DNA of 64,000 nucleotides from Ignavibacteriales bacterium (GTDB lineage: Bacteria > Bacteroidota > Ignavibacteria > Ignavibacteriales > Ignavibacteriaceae): assembly GCA_015709675.1 (NCBI GenBank), contig CP054182.1, positions 3,513,448-3,577,447 of the forward strand, given 5' to 3'. Below, in pieces: positions 2,962 through 14,683 of the stretch. How positions within the stretch are numbered: position 1 is the first letter of the stretch; every line of letters begins with the position of its first letter. A program made the translations under genes and the position numbers. Under the pieces are notes generated by a model. It searched no databases. It was not told where the DNA came from and saw only the letters and a program-made list of their open reading frames with translations.

Positions 2962-3225
2962 TTAGTTATTGATTGAGTCAATTATTCCGACAATTGAAGC
3001 ATCCACCGGGGCCATATCCACCGGAAGAGGTATTACGGCTTCGCTTGCGGTAACATAGAGGACCTTTTCCCCGGGGCCTGCACCGCTGGTATCCACTGCA
3101 ATCAGCGGTTCCCCTCTTGGGTTTTCGTCAGAATCAACCGGCTGAATGAGCATCAGTTTGAATCCTTCGAGTGCGGGGTACTTTTTAGTAGCCCAGATGT
3201 TTCCGATTACTTTTGCTAAATACAA
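2962..3225 (-). CDS. EutN/CcmL-family bacterial microcompartment vertex protein (second copy)
   Basis: 87 aa covering the whole EutN/CcmL fold: N-terminal strand Y-L-A-K-V-I-G-N-I-W-A-T-K-K, central V-D-T-x-G-A-G-P-G-E-x-V-L, C-terminal P-V-D-A-S-I-V-G-I-I-D. In microcompartments these proteins form pentamers that cap the shell vertices. The start is TTG at 3225. It follows the first copy after 58 nt and precedes rpoD. No hexameric shell gene or cargo enzyme lies in the window, so these may be satellite genes for a microcompartment encoded elsewhere, or pentamers used for something else. Confidence 0.93.
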   Translation of the reverse strand: MYLAKVIGNIWATKKYPALEGFKLMLIQPVDSDENPRGEPLIAVDTSGAGPGEKVLYVTASEAVIPLPVDMAPVDASIVGIIDSINN

Positions 3226-3970: not shown

Positions 3971-4146
3971 TGCAGATTTTTCAGTTTACCATTGATTTCC
4001 ATCAGAGCCGTCATTACCTCAACAGGGTTTTTTTGCAGTTTAGACAGCATTTCCGGTGTAACTGTTTCAGTCTTTTTGCAATCTTTGTATAACTTGTGAA
4101 GTTCCGCTTTCCTTGTGAGAGCAGAATGAGATAATCTCATCTTCAT
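3967..4146 (-). CDS. Small ORF upstream of the PIN gene, candidate antitoxin
   Basis: A 59-aa ORF (begins M-K-M-R-L-S-H-S-A-L, ends N-G-K-L-K-N-L-Q) that starts 2 nt after the phosphopentomutase stop and ends in an ATGA overlap with the PIN gene. Composition is basic and predicted helical; I do not recognise an AbrB, ribbon-helix-helix or Phd domain. Size, position and overlap are those of an antitoxin, but function is inferred from context only. Confidence 0.55.
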   Translation of the reverse strand: MKMRLSHSALTRKAELHKLYKDCKKTETVTPEMLSKLQKNPVEVMTALMEINGKLKNLQ

Positions 4147-4148
4147 GA

Positions 4149-5306
4149 TCAGATAAAACTTTCACCCTGAAGTTCATTAGGTACTGAAAAAAAACTGGCA
4201 ACGCTTTTACCCGCATCCGAAAAACTCTTTCTTGTACCCAGGTTTTTACCTTCTTTACCCCGGCGGTAAACCAGAAGAGGAACATACTCCCGGGAGTGAT
4301 CAGTACTTGGAGTTGTCGGGTCATTTCCATGATCAGCTGTGATGATTACCATATCGCTCTCATCAGCAGCCTCAAGAATTTTAGGCAGCAGATTATCAAA
4401 CTCTGTTAAAGCCAGAGAAAACCCGCGGTAGTCATTGCGATGACCGTAATAAACATCAAAATCAACAAGATTGGCGAATATGAAAGCATCCTTCTCAGAC
4501 TTCATATTCTGAATGATGCGCATGACCCCCTCAGCGTTGGATTTTGTAGCAACCGCTTTATCAATACCTTTATAATTAAATAAGTCTCCGACTTTGCCTA
4601 TTGAAATAGTTTTAATACCCGCGCGCTGAAGGTAATTAAACAGAGTAGCCGAAGGAGGATCCATCGAAAAATCTCTACGGTGAACAGTTCTGGTGAAGGT
4701 CCCCGGTTTTCCTATGAAGGGGCGGGCAATAACCCTTCCGACTATATCCGGAGGAACCAGTATTTCATCTCTGGTTATTTCACAGATTTTATAGAGCTCT
4801 TTCAGGGGAATAATATCCTCATGTGCGGCAATCTGAAATACTGAATCTGCCGATGTATATATAATCGGGTATCCGGTTTTCATATGCTTTTCACCCAGTT
4901 CTTTTATGATCTCGGTACCGGAAGCAGCTTTATTTCCTAAAAAACCTTTCAGCCCGGTTTTTTCAAGAAACAGGCTGGTTATCCTTTCAGGAAAACCATC
5001 CGGATAGTATGAGAAATCAAAATCAACGTGAATTCCCGCGAGTTCCCAATGCCCTGTAGTCGAATCTTTTCCTTTCGAAACCTCAGCCATCTTTCCGTAT
5101 GATGCGGATGGAAATGAAACCTGCGGCACTCCCTGAATCAATTCAATATTGCCCAGTCCCAAAGATTTAAGATTAGGAATCTGCAGTCCGTGTACTTTTC
5201 GCGCGGTATTCGCAAGAGTATTGCTTCCCTCATCATGATATAAATGTGCATCCGGCAGTTCGCCGATCCCCACCCCATCAAGAATAATCAGGACACAGTT
5301 ATTGAT
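4149..5306 (-). CDS. deoB: Phosphopentomutase (no canonical start codon at the expected site)
   Basis: Alkaline-phosphatase-superfamily enzyme interconverting (deoxy)ribose 1- and 5-phosphate in nucleoside salvage. Visible motifs are L-D-G-V-G-I-G-E-L-P-D-A, G-K-D-S-T-T-G-H-W-E (phospho-acceptor loop), N-L-V-D-F-D-x3-G-H, I-T-A-D-H-G-N-D-P and T-D-H-S-R-E-Y-V-P-L, which hold the metal ligands. The first canonical start (GTG, 5273) lies inside the first motif and would remove its metal-binding Asp. Homology continues upstream to about 5306, but no ATG/GTG/TTG occurs before the in-frame TAG at 5316-5318 that ends the previous gene. ATC at 5306, 7 nt after AGGA, is a possible non-canonical start and is used here as a boundary only. 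The gene is full length otherwise. Confidence 0.88.
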   Translation of the reverse strand: MNNCVLIILDGVGIGELPDAHLYHDEGSNTLANTARKVHGLQIPNLKSLGLGNIELIQGVPQVSFPSASYGKMAEVSKGKDSTTGHWELAGIHVDFDFSYYPDGFPERITSLFLEKTGLKGFLGNKAASGTEIIKELGEKHMKTGYPIIYTSADSVFQIAAHEDIIPLKELYKICEITRDEILVPPDIVGRVIARPFIGKPGTFTRTVHRRDFSMDPPSATLFNYLQRAGIKTISIGKVGDLFNYKGIDKAVATKSNAEGVMRIIQNMKSEKDAFIFANLVDFDVYYGHRNDYRGFSLALTEFDNLLPKILEAADESDMVIITADHGNDPTTPSTDHSREYVPLLVYRRGKEGKNLGTRKSFSDAGKSVASFFSVPNELQGESFI

Positions 5307-5315
5307 ACAGAAATC

Positions 5316-7217
5316 CTATAGTTGTAAAACTTTATTTCCGCCGGTTTCCGAAGCTTTTTTAACCGCAAGCCGCAGCTGCTCCAGAAGTTCATCAACATCA
5401 GTTTTGTCCGTGGAATTAAGTAAACCAATTGAAACCGTAAACGTTGTGCTTCTGCTACCGGTTGAAACAGGAATCCGTGCAATCTTAACGCGAATCTTAT
5501 CCGCTCTTACGGCAAGTTCCTGTTCATCATTATGCAAAAAGAACAGAGCAAAAGTGAGGTCATCAAGACGCCCGCAGAAACTTAGCGCGTCAAGTTCCTG
5601 ATCAAGAGCATCAGCAAACTCCTTCATGGTATTCTTAATCACTAAGGGATCGCTTAACTCCTGACGGTTTTTACCTTCATCAATCTTGATAAGAACAAGA
5701 TTTGAACGCAAATTAAGAATACTGGCTTTTTCAAGTTCCTCAGCCGCTCTTCTGCGGAAAAAAGCAGAAGAATAGACTCCGGTCTCAGGATCAAATGTAA
5801 TTAGTGACTTTAAACGCTTTATCTGTCCGAAAGCATGCATTAGTATACCTAACTGTCCGGTAACTTTCTTCAGATAATCATGATCACGCTGAGTGAAAGC
5901 ATTCTTTTTCATACTTTCAAAACAAAGCGCTCCGAGGACCTCACTGTGATATATTATCGGCACAGCCATAAAAGATCCGTCTAAAAGTATATCTTCACTA
6001 TGAGAGAACCGCTTAAGCGAAGCCGCGTTCAGATCACCAATACGCACCTGGCTGCCTGTAAATACACATTTTCCGACTATTGTGTTGTCACGTTCAATTA
6101 CTTCACCGCTTTCTATATAGGTGAACGCTTTAGGATTTACAACAGCAGATACCTTGAACTGATGTTCTTCCTGATGCCAGGTAACAAAACTGAAGCAGTC
6201 TGATTCAACAAGGATGGATGATAATGCAGCAATGGAATGATGGAGTGATTCCTCATCATCAGTATGTATATTCTGGCTGAGAAAATCCGCAAAACCCTCC
6301 GAGCGTCTGTTGGCTATGGACTCAGCATGTTTATGTGCGAACAGGTCTATCAGGACGGTTATAAGTCTTACAAACCGGCCGAGCATATACATTTGCTCTA
6401 TACCAAACGCATCCGGGCTTTTGGAGTCAACGGCGAGTATTCCGATAAGATTGGAATTGTGAAATACCGGGACACCGAGGAAACTCTTTATCTTTTGCGG
6501 ATGGGTATAATATCTGAAATTTTCCCTTTCGCTTATTTGCGGTATATCAGTGAGCAACCCCGGTTCCTGCTTGCTTATGATCTGCCCTAATATATCATTC
6601 TGAATCTCAAGTTTTTTCTTTTCGATTTCATGACTGACAGAAGCATATTTTTCAATAGTAAGTGTTGATTTCCGTTTATCATACCAGAAATAAATGGCAG
6701 TATGGGCCGAAAACAGTTCACGGACGATGATAAGAATCCGTTCGAGCAGGAAACTTAACTGCTGGTTAGCTGCAAGATCAACCGGGAATTCTTCAGTGGC
6801 AAGGTTACGGAATTTTTCCAGACTATGTTCCGTATCTTCATCTGAGCTGCTCAACTTATTGCCGATTGTGGTAATATTATTTTCGGTAAGTACACGGCTG
6901 GATTTTCTGACAATCGAAAATCCCTCATCCACATGGTCAAGATTAACATCCGTGTAATCCTGTACCTTTTCAGCGGGACGATTGATGATTCCGTCTGATT
7001 CGGGATTGTCAGTACCCAGCGAAGACCCGAGGGGAAGGTTTTCTTCCGGAGGTTCAGTCTGTGCTTTCTTTTCGCCATCAAGGCGGAGAAAAAGGATGAC
7101 GGAAGTAATAAGGAGGACGATAAAGGTAACCGCCTTCAGGAGAAAATCCTCAAAGAGAACGAACAGTATCAGAAGTGTCGCAGCGGCTACGATCAGCAGC
7201 GCATTGCTGTATTTCAT
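5316..7217 (-). CDS. Membrane protein with two GAF domains and a degenerate GGDEF domain
   Basis: 633 aa. Two adjacent transmembrane helices (about 7-45) are followed by an acidic linker, a first GAF domain (about 145-295), a second GAF domain (about 325-470) and a C-terminal GGDEF-like domain (about 480-633). The GGDEF signature is replaced by G-R-L-D-D-L-T-F, so cyclic-di-GMP synthesis is unlikely. GAF domains bind small ligands or sense redox state, so the protein may be a membrane-tethered sensor with a non-catalytic output domain. It lies 53 nt after engB. Its stop codon is in the same frame as the phosphopentomutase reading frame, 12 nt upstream of that gene's probable N-terminus. Ligand and partner are unknown. 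Confidence 0.82.
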   Translation of the reverse strand: MKYSNALLIVAAATLLILFVLFEDFLLKAVTFIVLLITSVILFLRLDGEKKAQTEPPEENLPLGSSLGTDNPESDGIINRPAEKVQDYTDVNLDHVDEGFSIVRKSSRVLTENNITTIGNKLSSSDEDTEHSLEKFRNLATEEFPVDLAANQQLSFLLERILIIVRELFSAHTAIYFWYDKRKSTLTIEKYASVSHEIEKKKLEIQNDILGQIISKQEPGLLTDIPQISERENFRYYTHPQKIKSFLGVPVFHNSNLIGILAVDSKSPDAFGIEQMYMLGRFVRLITVLIDLFAHKHAESIANRRSEGFADFLSQNIHTDDEESLHHSIAALSSILVESDCFSFVTWHQEEHQFKVSAVVNPKAFTYIESGEVIERDNTIVGKCVFTGSQVRIGDLNAASLKRFSHSEDILLDGSFMAVPIIYHSEVLGALCFESMKKNAFTQRDHDYLKKVTGQLGILMHAFGQIKRLKSLITFDPETGVYSSAFFRRRAAEELEKASILNLRSNLVLIKIDEGKNRQELSDPLVIKNTMKEFADALDQELDALSFCGRLDDLTFALFFLHNDEQELAVRADKIRVKIARIPVSTGSRSTTFTVSIGLLNSTDKTDVDELLEQLRLAVKKASETGGNKVLQL

Positions 7218-7251
7218 AGTTCCTTTATCAGACTGATTAATTAAGGGTTTT

Positions 7252-7259
7252 GAAATATA
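7252..7259 (-). promoter_or_regulatory. Possible -7 promoter element before the GAF/GGDEF gene
   Basis: TATATTTC on the minus strand, 35 nt upstream of the ATG at 7217. It matches the TAnnTTTn form seen at better promoters in this window, but no TTG lies at the expected -33 position. Confidence 0.4.
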
Positions 7260-7270
7260 ATTAAAATTCT

Positions 7271-7867
7271 TTAACTTTTACAGAACTGCGTGAAATTTTG
7301 AATCCTTGAAGCTATAGCTTTTTTGCCGTCAAGAGAAACTGCAGAGTACGGGTAAATTCCCTCCTGCAGGCTTAATTCCGGAAGGATAGCCCGGACCTCC
7401 CTTGCAGCCTCGGAAATCCTGTTTCGCTTAACTTTATCGCACTTTGTAAGAATTACTGCAAAATTCAGTTTTTCACCGACCAGGAAATTCCACAACTCCA
7501 AATCCAGTTTCGAAGGTTCATGTCTGGCATCAACCAGGGAAAAGATCAAACGGTTTTCATTTTTAAGCTTGAGAAAATTTTCAGTAAGCAGGGAGTACTT
7601 TTTAATATCACTCTGAGAGGCTTTGGAGTAACCATAGCCTGGCATGTCAACCAGATACACATCAGAATTGAGCCAGAAGTAATTAATGGAACGGGTTTTA
7701 CCCGGGGTCGAACTGGTTTTAGCCAGACCCGGGACATTAAGAAAAGTATTGATAAAAGAAGACTTCCCCACATTTGAGCGTCCGCAGAGTATCACCTCCG
7801 GCTTCTCCTCTTTCGGGAGCTCCTTCAGGTCAAAAACCGCTTTTAAGAATTTTGCTTTCTCTGCCAT
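7271..7867 (-). CDS. engB: Ribosome-biogenesis GTP-binding protein YsxC/EngB
   Basis: 198 aa, the normal length for this TrmE-Era-EngA-EngB family GTPase. The P-loop is G-R-S-N-V-G-K-S (29-36), G2 is in the T-P-G-K-T-R region, G3 is D-M-P-G-Y-G (74-79) and G4 is T-K-C-D (141-144). It assists late assembly of the large ribosomal subunit and is usually essential. Its ATG lies only about 4 nt downstream of the U-tract of the rplQ terminator, so its mRNA must come from read-through or from a start within that hairpin region. Confidence 0.96.
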   Translation of the reverse strand: MAEKAKFLKAVFDLKELPKEEKPEVILCGRSNVGKSSFINTFLNVPGLAKTSSTPGKTRSINYFWLNSDVYLVDMPGYGYSKASQSDIKKYSLLTENFLKLKNENRLIFSLVDARHEPSKLDLELWNFLVGEKLNFAVILTKCDKVKRNRISEAAREVRAILPELSLQEGIYPYSAVSLDGKKAIASRIQNFTQFCKS

Positions 7868-7869
7868 AA

Positions 7870-7907
7870 TAAAAAAAAGAGTAACCCGGATATCTCCGGA
7901 TTACTCT
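7870..7907 (-). terminator. Terminator at the end of the S10-spc-alpha operon
   Basis: A 13-bp stem with one mismatch (AGAGTAATCCGGA against TCCGGGTTACTCT, loop GATA) is followed on the minus strand by eight T residues. It closes the ribosomal-protein operon after rplQ and stands immediately before the engB start codon. Confidence 0.9.
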
Positions 7908-7930
7908 TCCTGTTAAAGATTCAACGAAGT

Positions 7931-8401
7931 TTACGCGTTGGCTTCAGCCGTTTTTTCGGCTTTTTCCTGCTGTTTTTCTTTCTTCTGCTTGGATTTTTCT
8001 GCGCGTGATTCGCGGAGATCAGCAGCTCTCTGATTTGCTACTTCATTGTAGTCAACCAGTTCAATGATAGCCATCTCAGCAGCATCACCAAGGCGTCTGC
8101 CTCTTTTAATTACACGGGTGTATCCGCCCTTACGGTCTTCAACTTTTGCCGCGATTTCACCAAAGAGTTCTTTTACAACATCCTTATCCTTCAGACGGTC
8201 CATGATCAGCTTTTTGCGGTGCAGATCGCCAACCTTAGCTTTAGTAATGATAGGCTCAATAAATGAACGGAGTTCTTTCGCCTTGGCAAGGGTTGTAGTA
8301 ATTCTTTTATGCTTAAGAAGAGAAACAGAGAGATTTCTCAGCAGAGCTTCTTTATGAGAAGCTGTGCGCCCTAATTTTCTTCCTTTGATATTATGATTCA
8401 T
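7931..8401 (-). CDS. rplQ: 50S ribosomal protein L17
   Basis: 156 aa. The core (R-K-L-G-R-T-x-S-H-K-E-A-L-L-R-N through the G-D-A-A-E-M-A-I-I-E-L region) matches L17, which sits near the exit tunnel of the large subunit. The last 35-40 residues form an extra tail rich in Lys, Glu, Ala and Gln that is absent from the shorter enterobacterial protein. Last gene of the alpha operon, 19 nt after rpoA. Confidence 0.97.
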   Translation of the reverse strand: MNHNIKGRKLGRTASHKEALLRNLSVSLLKHKRITTTLAKAKELRSFIEPIITKAKVGDLHRKKLIMDRLKDKDVVKELFGEIAAKVEDRKGGYTRVIKRGRRLGDAAEMAIIELVDYNEVANQRAADLRESRAEKSKQKKEKQQEKAEKTAEANA

Positions 8402-8420
8402 TTTTCAATTCCTCAGCGTA

Positions 8421-9431
8421 TTAATTATTGTCGGTTTCGGATTTCAGATATTTGTCAATATCCATTCCGAAATGCAGACCAAGTTTTTCAATATGTTCGG
8501 AAAGCTCAGCAAGTGACTTACGGCCGAAGTTTCTGTATTTCAGCAGTTCTGATTCTTCTCTTCTAACCAGATCACCTACACTTTTAATGCTTGCGGCCTT
8601 AAGGCAGTTATGGGCACGAACACTCAGTTCCAGCTCATCAATACTCATCAAAAGCGCTTTTTTGGTTTTCTCAACTTCCGGATCCTTTTCAGCACCTTCT
8701 TTCGGAGCTTCAGGTTCAAGATTCAGACCAGTGAAAAGGTCAAGATGTTCTTTCAGCAGTTTAGCTGACTGCGTCATTGCATCCTGCGGGGAAATACTTC
8801 CGTCAGTGGTTACATCAATGGTGAGTTTTTCGAAATCATTTCTGTCTCCGATTCTCACGTTTTCGATATCATAACGGACATTCTTAATCGGAGTGAAAAT
8901 TGCGTCTATTGCAATAACTCCGATTCCGAATTCCACATATTTTGCTTCACTATTCTTAATCTCTACTGCCGGAACGTAACCTCTGCCCTGACCAAGAATC
9001 AGCTCGATGCTGAATTTAGCCACGCTGTTAAGCGTTGCTATATGGAGTTCAGGATTCAGTACTTCAACATCTGATGTATATTTCGCAAGATCACCCGCTA
9101 CAAATTCACCTTCGCCATTAAAAGAAATTTCAATGCGGCCTGGTTTCTTGGTAAGAGCTTTTAATCTGATCTGTTTCAGATTAAGTATGATCTCAGTAAC
9201 ATCTTCAACAACCCCGGGAATGGTGGTGAACTCATGAAGCACATCACTTATCTTTATTCCGATAATTGCTGTGCCCGGAAGCGATGAAAGCAGTACTCTT
9301 CTCAGAGAGTTGCCAAGAGTGGCTCCATAACCCCTCTCGAGCGGCTGAAGGGTAAATCTTCCGAATGTATCACTTTTCGTTGATTCATCAAGAATTACTG
9401 CCTCAGGCATTCTTAATTTTATCTGGTTCAT
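8421..9431 (-). CDS. rpoA: DNA-directed RNA polymerase alpha subunit
   Basis: 336 aa, normal length. The N-terminal domain has the G-Y-G-x-T-L-G-N-S-L-R-R-V-L-L-S-S dimerisation segment, and a charged linker (about 240-258) leads to a C-terminal domain with the two helix-hairpin-helix motifs that touch DNA and activators. It nucleates assembly of the polymerase core. Located between rpsD and rplQ as in the standard alpha operon; a clear AGAGG ribosome-binding site precedes the ATG. Confidence 0.98.
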   Translation of the reverse strand: MNQIKLRMPEAVILDESTKSDTFGRFTLQPLERGYGATLGNSLRRVLLSSLPGTAIIGIKISDVLHEFTTIPGVVEDVTEIILNLKQIRLKALTKKPGRIEISFNGEGEFVAGDLAKYTSDVEVLNPELHIATLNSVAKFSIELILGQGRGYVPAVEIKNSEAKYVEFGIGVIAIDAIFTPIKNVRYDIENVRIGDRNDFEKLTIDVTTDGSISPQDAMTQSAKLLKEHLDLFTGLNLEPEAPKEGAEKDPEVEKTKKALLMSIDELELSVRAHNCLKAASIKSVGDLVRREESELLKYRNFGRKSLAELSEHIEKLGLHFGMDIDKYLKSETDNN

Positions 9432-9462
9432 GTATATGACCTCTAAATTTCTTTCTTAATTA

Positions 9463-10089
9463 TTACTTAGAGTAGAGCTCAACTACCAACTGTTCATTGG
9501 CATTTAGAGGAATTTCACTTCTCTCAGGAAGCTGTAAAAATGTTCCTGTTAAAGTAGCTTTATTAACCGACAACCAAGAGAACTGAGCATCAACAACTCT
9601 CTTGAGGGAGTTATGAATCAGTTCAAGATTCTTGCTCTGGTCTTTAACTTTTATCACATCACCAGGAGTTACGGTATATGAAGGAATATCAACCAGCTTG
9701 TCATTCACCAGTACGTGACGATGACGGACAATCTGACGGGCTGACTTGCGTGAAGGAGCAAAACCAAGACGATAAACCACGTTATCAAGTCTTGTTTCAA
9801 GCAGTCTCACCAGGTTCTCACCGGTAATACCCTTCTGTCTGGTAGCTTTTTCAAAATAATTTCTGAACTGTGTTTCAAGCACTCCGTAAATTCTTTTGAT
9901 TTTCTGTTTTTCCCTGAGCTGCACACCGTATTCAGAAATCTTTGACTTTCTGGATAATCCGTGCTGTCCGGGAGGATAATTCTTCTTTTCAAGAGGACAT
10001 TTTTCTGTTAAACATTTCTGTCCTTTTAAATACAGCTTAGTCTTTTCTCTTCTGCATAATTTACAAACTGATCCTGTATATCTTGCCAT
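9463..10089 (-). CDS. rpsD: 30S ribosomal protein S4
   Basis: 208 aa. Primary 16S rRNA-binding protein that nucleates small-subunit assembly. It carries an S4 RNA-binding domain (about 95-160, L-E[11 protein letters not shown]). Four N-terminal cysteines (C9, C12, C26, C31) indicate the zinc-binding form. In many bacteria S4 represses the alpha operon by binding its mRNA; no such site was identified here. Confidence 0.98.
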
Positions 10090-14609: not shown

Positions 14610-14683
14610 TGGCTGCCGAGGGAGGATTCGAACCTCCGCATACGGCTCCAAAGGCCGCTGTCCTACCGTTAGACGACTCGGCA
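14610..14683 (-). tRNA. tRNA-Gln (UUG), inside the spc operon
   Basis: A complete cloverleaf. The acceptor stem is TGCCGAG/CTCGGCA with discriminator G and an encoded CCA. The D-stem is GTC/GAC, the anticodon stem GCGGC/GCCGT with loop CTTTGGA (anticodon TTG, reading CAA), and the T arm GGAGG-TTCGAAT-CCTCC. It starts 4 nt after the rplR stop and ends about 40 nt before rpsE, on the same strand, so it is very probably cut out of the ribosomal-protein mRNA. Confidence 0.96.

Follow-up and report, generated by a model that had tools for sequence, protein, structure and literature searches.

A conserved AUU, AUC or AUA start codon with Shine-Dalgarno support proposed for deoB in a clade of Ignavibacteriales

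In the genome of an Ignavibacteriales bacterium, the phosphopentomutase gene deoB raises the question of where its translation begins. The window analyzed here is a stretch of 64,000 nucleotides from contig CP054182.1, and on its minus strand deoB directly follows a gene for a protein with two GAF domains and a GGDEF-like domain (Table 1). The junction of the two genes reads TAG (5318-5316), GAT TTC TGT ATC (5306-5304) AAT AAC TGT GTC CTG (5291-5289) ATT ATT CTT GAT (5279-5277) GGG GTG (5273-5271). The original prediction held that no canonical start codon preserves the aspartate of the L-D-G-V-G-I-G-E motif of DeoB, a residue which we take to be a metal ligand, and the letters bear this out: the deoB frame, read from the upstream TAG (5318-5316) to the Asp codon, contains no ATG, GTG or TTG. 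It was also correct in placing the first GTG (5273) after the Asp codon and the TAG in the same frame as deoB, both of which can be read directly. A mechanical ORF finder places the start of deoB at this GTG, which would cost the protein its Asp. The frame itself is that of a deoB equivalog, with scores of 518.6 bits for NF003766 (cut-off 256) and 459.3 bits for TIGR01696 (cut-off 341.2), and solved phosphopentomutases such as 3m8w align with it from residue 7. GTG 5273 was rejected as an internal start, as the valine codon of D-G-V-G is GTC, GTT, GTA or GTG in relatives and GTG is not conserved.

Table 1. Features of the deoB locus, in coordinates of the window
Feature	Position	Strand	Remarks
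deoB, phosphopentomutase	4149-5306	-	385 residues if AUC-started; NF003766 and TIGR01696 above cut-off; Pfam Metalloenzyme
AUC start codon of deoB (proposed)	5304-5306	-	homologous column holds only ATG, TTG, GTG, ATT, ATC or ATA (94/94 genomes)
Shine-Dalgarno core AGGA	5314-5317	-	7 nt before AUC; overlaps the upstream TAG
Asp codon of L-D-G-V-G-I-G-E motif	5277-5279	-	invariant column D13 in 17-row alignment; aligned with 3m8w
GAF-GAF-GGDEF-like upstream gene	5316-7217	-	ends 9 nt before AUC

Three options had been offered for the missing start: an AUC or AUU start after AGGA, read-through of the stop codon to give a sensor-enzyme fusion, or a sequencing error. The first of these has stood and the other two have not. 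Comparison of the junction in close relatives, which the original prediction had called for, was made at the ninth codon before the metal-binding Asp, the column occupied by ATC (5306-5304) in the present genome. A first set of genomes of the order yielded deoB in 57 of 59, the present one included, and 43 genomes added from the same family as a second set yielded deoB in 38, readable in 37; no deoB match was obtained in seven of the genomes searched (G024, G035, G065, G074, G083, G095 and G097). Two loci were dropped before the count, one on a second deoB contig of genome G033 (L344) and one cut at a contig edge (L320). Across the resulting 94 genomes the start column holds ATG in 54, TTG in 14, GTG in 6, ATT in 12, ATC in 7 and ATA in 1, and no other codon occurs, so that an NTG codon is found in 74 genomes and an AUH codon (AUU, AUC or AUA) in 20. 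The sister species L002, which is 83% identical, shows this gap as well, its start column being ATT (TAG GAA ACG TCA ATT AAT AAC).

All 20 AUH starts fall within one family, f1, which is probably the Ignavibacteriaceae because its member G096 matches L032 (Ignavibacteriaceae bacterium ACE_BAC35) exactly in the protein stretch used for the tree described below. They occur in 12 genera and in 20 of the 72 readable f1 genomes, compared with none of the 22 genomes of families f2 and f3. The six AUH genera with at least two readable genomes are each uniform, the second, ATG-started copy in G033 (L344) being left out as possibly foreign. That copy (G033:C66) lies on a short contig and has a different leader; it is perhaps foreign DNA in a draft genome. 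Around the AUH codons, position -1 is T in 8 loci, G in 6, C in 3 and A in 3, while every one of the 20 has A at +1 and T at +2.

Each of the 20 AUH loci also carries a supporting Shine-Dalgarno (SD) sequence at proper spacing, the spacing of the AGGA in the present genome being 7. The letters and spacing of the SD vary among these loci, and the present one lies at the weak end of the group with a 4-nt match and -3.7 kcal/mol. The 3' end of the 16S rRNA in this genome is GGCTGGATCACCTCCTT, which carries CCTCC. An SD tetramer was scored as AGGA, GGAG, GAGG, AAGG, AGGT or GGTG within a 15-nt stretch whose end lies 3 nt ahead of the start codon, and by this list, which was drawn up after all 94 loci were known, a tetramer precedes 20/20 AUH starts, 0/54 ATG starts and 5/20 TTG or GTG starts of deoB. 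Ordinary ATG orthologs lie in between, with tetramers in 41/91 in the present genome and 34/91 in the relative G002; deoB thus tends to have either AUG without an SD or AUH with one. If a match of at least 4 to the SD consensus is required instead, 20/20 AUH, 7/54 ATG and 9/20 TTG or GTG starts qualify. This second measure had been settled before the second set, with its 37 readable genomes, was added, and in that set it gave 3/3 for AUH and 2/31 for ATG, one of the three AUH genomes (G096) not being truly unseen since it shares its protein stretch with L032, which was known earlier. Fisher's exact test of SD against AUH gives p = 1.5e-12, a value that overstates the evidence because the AUH cases are related, with three state changes in the tree and a single origin not rejected. 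The original suggestion of an AUC or AUU start after AGGA has therefore held up, given the restriction of the column to ATG, TTG, GTG or ATH in 94/94 genomes and the SD in every ATH case. This comparison shows where deoB starts, that its start codon is AUH in these genomes and that AUH goes together with an SD, and the joint reading, that deoB starts at AUC 5306-5304 and that this start is SD-dependent and weakly initiating, is one that we hold with good confidence.

The history of the AUH state was followed in a tree of the deoB protein with the start region excluded, in which 70 of 95 labelled rows were used, 18 of them AUH; the other 25, which include the AUH loci L338 and L345, are short stretches and were omitted. 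AUH rows fall in three places in this tree (13 rows including the present one, 4 rows and 1 row), corresponding to three state changes, and the link between SD and AUH consequently rests on few independent events. A single AUH origin was not rejected (p-AU 0.353). Other row sets gave 2 changes (57 rows, 13 AUH) or 4 changes (62 rows, 15 AUH, with some distant rows including L068). Inside the AUH groups the codon switches among ATT, ATC and ATA, and the AUH state itself has been kept over evolutionary time, as is seen from the 12 genera and from the groups of 13, 4 and 1 rows. Among the best 80 named deoB loci of the matches listed, 6 are without a canonical codon 6-16 codons before the Asp; three of these (L032, L036 and L039) are AUH loci of family f1, and L052 has GTG at -18. 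L068, a Syntrophothermus metagenome-assembled genome (MAG), is also among the six; AGGAGG is followed by ATA or ATT around 2982-3030, and this locus is possibly an independent AUH deoB in Clostridia. In L057, an Ignavibacteriae MAG, CTG or ATC is the candidate deoB start.

The textbook example of a gene with an AUH start is infC, which encodes IF3. The infC product of the present organism scores over the profile cut-off (208.6 bits), indicating that IF3 is present, and AGAGGT precedes ATC in the gene. Judged by coordinates, 29 of 31 genomes have no canonical codon in infC ahead of the conserved part. The exceptions are G025 with ATG and G009 with TTG (L151, L152); deoB in these two genomes has ATT and ATC, respectively, so the two traits are not locked together. 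The canonical codons of infC in G025 and G009 could reflect a loss of IF3 autoregulation. A wider screen compared 1.2 Mb of the present genome (of 4.2 Mb) with 1.2 Mb of G002 (of 3.86 Mb), which is under a third of each, and gave 228 reciprocal-best pairs, 177 without overlapping shadow frames and 173 once short ones were also removed. The first pass flagged 19 pairs and the second 7, all of which were inspected; the flagged pairs other than deoB and infC either had ATG, GTG or TTG no more than a few codons away or were frames over tRNA genes. In the present genome only deoB (ATC, versus ATG in G002) and infC (ATC in both) had no canonical codon at the position of the homologous start, a statement that holds for the 173-pair screen and not for the genome, as an AUH gene would escape the screen if its N-terminus were poorly conserved or if an NTG codon happened to lie upstream. 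Only 105 of the 173 pairs have a canonical codon in the same column within 25 aligned columns, and the codon in the present genome is ATG in 86 of these 105, compared with 8 of 22 for deoB in families f2 and f3, where weak deoB starts are frequent (TTG 10, GTG 4, ATG 8).

A serious rival to a selected weak start is that AUH represents a drifted start which was tolerated once an SD had arisen, with output compensated and no sensing of IF3 selected. The presence of an SD in 20/20 AUH loci and of the tetramer in 0/54 ATG loci fits such a history and resembles the compensation of GUG and UUG starts by SD sequences described in PMC5622118. The same paper reports 1 AUG-to-AUU switch per 61,358 ancestral AUG starts, a rarity that speaks against drift but may rest on annotated starts and hence be an undercount. 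The canonical infC of G025 and G009, where deoB stays AUH, also sits comfortably with drift. A single base change would restore AUG, yet AUH has been kept in 12 genera, and the six with at least two readable genomes are uniform. Unregulated drift is a substantial possibility, to which we give a minority share of belief.

It is far less probable that deoB starts at CTG 5291, four codons before the Asp. This CTG is in frame, and CTG is a listed start codon in translation table 11. The gap from AGGA to the CTG would be 22 nt, however, the sister genome has CTC at this place, and it is the ATH column that is kept in 20 genomes.

The gene upstream of deoB bears on the remaining alternatives. In 53 of 56 loci its C-terminal end resembles that of the present GGDEF-like gene, with no call for the other three; the relatives were judged by eye, and the profile search was run on the present copy only. 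AUH deoB genes begin 7-15 nt after the stop codon of the GGDEF-like gene in all 17 measured loci, and in all 17 the upstream gene is on the same strand at this short gap, as expected for a translationally coupled pair. ATG deoB genes lie at 7-15 nt in 3 of 19 measured loci, the others ranging from a 1-nt overlap to 105 nt. The corresponding figures are 8/13 for TTG loci and 0/4 for GTG loci, and since 8 of the 13 TTG loci have it as well, the short gap is not special to AUH. Read-through of the TAG to give a GGDEF-phosphopentomutase fusion would require the two frames to agree, as they do in 8 of the 17 AUH loci including the present one. They differ in the other 9 (gaps of 7, 8, 10 or 14 nt), which excludes a fusion as a general explanation, and as ATG-start relatives separate the two genes by as much as 105 nt, we regard the suggested sensor-enzyme fusion as highly implausible even here. 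A sequencing or assembly error, or a decayed deoB, is just as hard to credit: most of the relatives are draft genomes, but 20 genomes from 12 genera share the gap, the present single-contig genome included, and none of the 20 has a stop within the matched frame (G027 and G100 being cut at contig ends).

The GGDEF-like domain of the present genome reads CGRLDD in place of GGDEF. Active cyclases carry the GGDEF motif, and this protein is probably not an active cyclase. GRLxE-like letters occur in 19 of 56 loci, by a pattern that was shaped on the present form and is uninformative for the remaining loci. With respect to RNA features, a fold of 111 nt at the junction was no better than those of shuffled sequences (z 0.58), and no Rfam family reached its gathering score in positions 4000-10000 of the window. 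Elsewhere in the window, a tRNA-Gln (TTG) gene is located at 14610-14683 on the minus strand inside a ribosomal protein cluster, flanked by genes that are presumably rplR and rpsE, and G002 has a tRNA-like sequence at the same junction of the cluster.

Initiator fMet-tRNA can initiate at AUU, AUC and AUA; IF3 destabilizes such complexes and SD pairing strengthens them. In the model proposed for deoB, AGGA (5317-5314) would pair with the 16S tail and initiator fMet-tRNA would then read AUC 5306-5304, probably assisted by ribosomes that have just left the GGDEF-like gene 9 nt upstream. Initiation at AUC would be weak and open to rejection by IF3, and deoB would as a result be held at a low and probably IF3-sensitive output, in the manner of infC, pcnB and sigR. 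The low output, the translational coupling and the sensitivity to IF3 are predictions from the arrangement of the locus, and for the IF3 step taken alone we see the chances as about even.

Conserved AUH starts are of a known kind, and deoB in this clade of Ignavibacteriales appears to be a new case. Literature searches limited to open-access PMC papers listed none that names an AUU, AUC or AUA start of deoB in its title or in the opening of its abstract, which is weak evidence of absence. Like deoB, infC has an AUH codon whose position is conserved and which follows an SD-like sequence, identified by eye. It differs in encoding the codon-rejecting factor itself, which makes for autoregulation, whereas deoB encodes a metabolic enzyme and follows a GGDEF-like gene. 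The output of pcnB in E. coli is reportedly limited by its AUU start (cited in PMC13009471 and PMC1780047); this is another gene in another phylum, and the AUH state of deoB follows clades within one family. PMC1780047 also notes that in two bacteria lepA reaches its full length only with AUU as the start codon. The sigR gene of Streptomyces combines a conserved non-canonical start with an extensive ribosome-binding site, and IF3 represses its GTC start (PMC5472188). Its codon is GTC or GTT rather than ATH, its product is a regulator, and it has been tested experimentally, whereas deoB is known from sequence comparison. In Staphylococcus, ccpN (AUA), cvfC1 (AUU) and, in one lineage, citZ (AUA) have AUH starts with an extended SD, conserved for ccpN and cvfC1; in poor medium the AUA and AUU starts yield about 10% of what AUG gives, and in rich medium ccpN reaches as much as 30% (PMC13009471). 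These genes belong to Firmicutes and, unlike deoB, were tested experimentally, and the passages on them describe no coupling to a conserved upstream gene. Raised IF3 also lowers re-initiation, and does so less when an SD is present, as shown in PMC2268962. For Ignavibacteria, a table in PMC10783764 gives the value 32, taken here as percent SD use.

Well-characterized bacterial genes with conserved AUH starts are few, and deoB offers a natural comparison series in which one gene pair carries six different start codons across 94 genomes. Gene callers limited to ATG, GTG and TTG lose the catalytic Asp of DeoB in this genome and may misplace starts in relatives. For the organism, the proposed reading is that a non-canonical start has been maintained and, rescued by SD pairing, throttles deoB. 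It is tempting, though we consider it rather unlikely, to go further and suppose that deoB and infC of family f1 form an IF3-sensing group, in which (deoxy)ribose-phosphate salvage would follow the level of free IF3 relative to ribosomes as well as the translation of the conserved GGDEF-like gene, and that the lineage has swapped two equally throttled designs, AUG without an SD and AUH with one. The alternation between these two designs provides a direct way to ask if weak initiation is itself what is selected.
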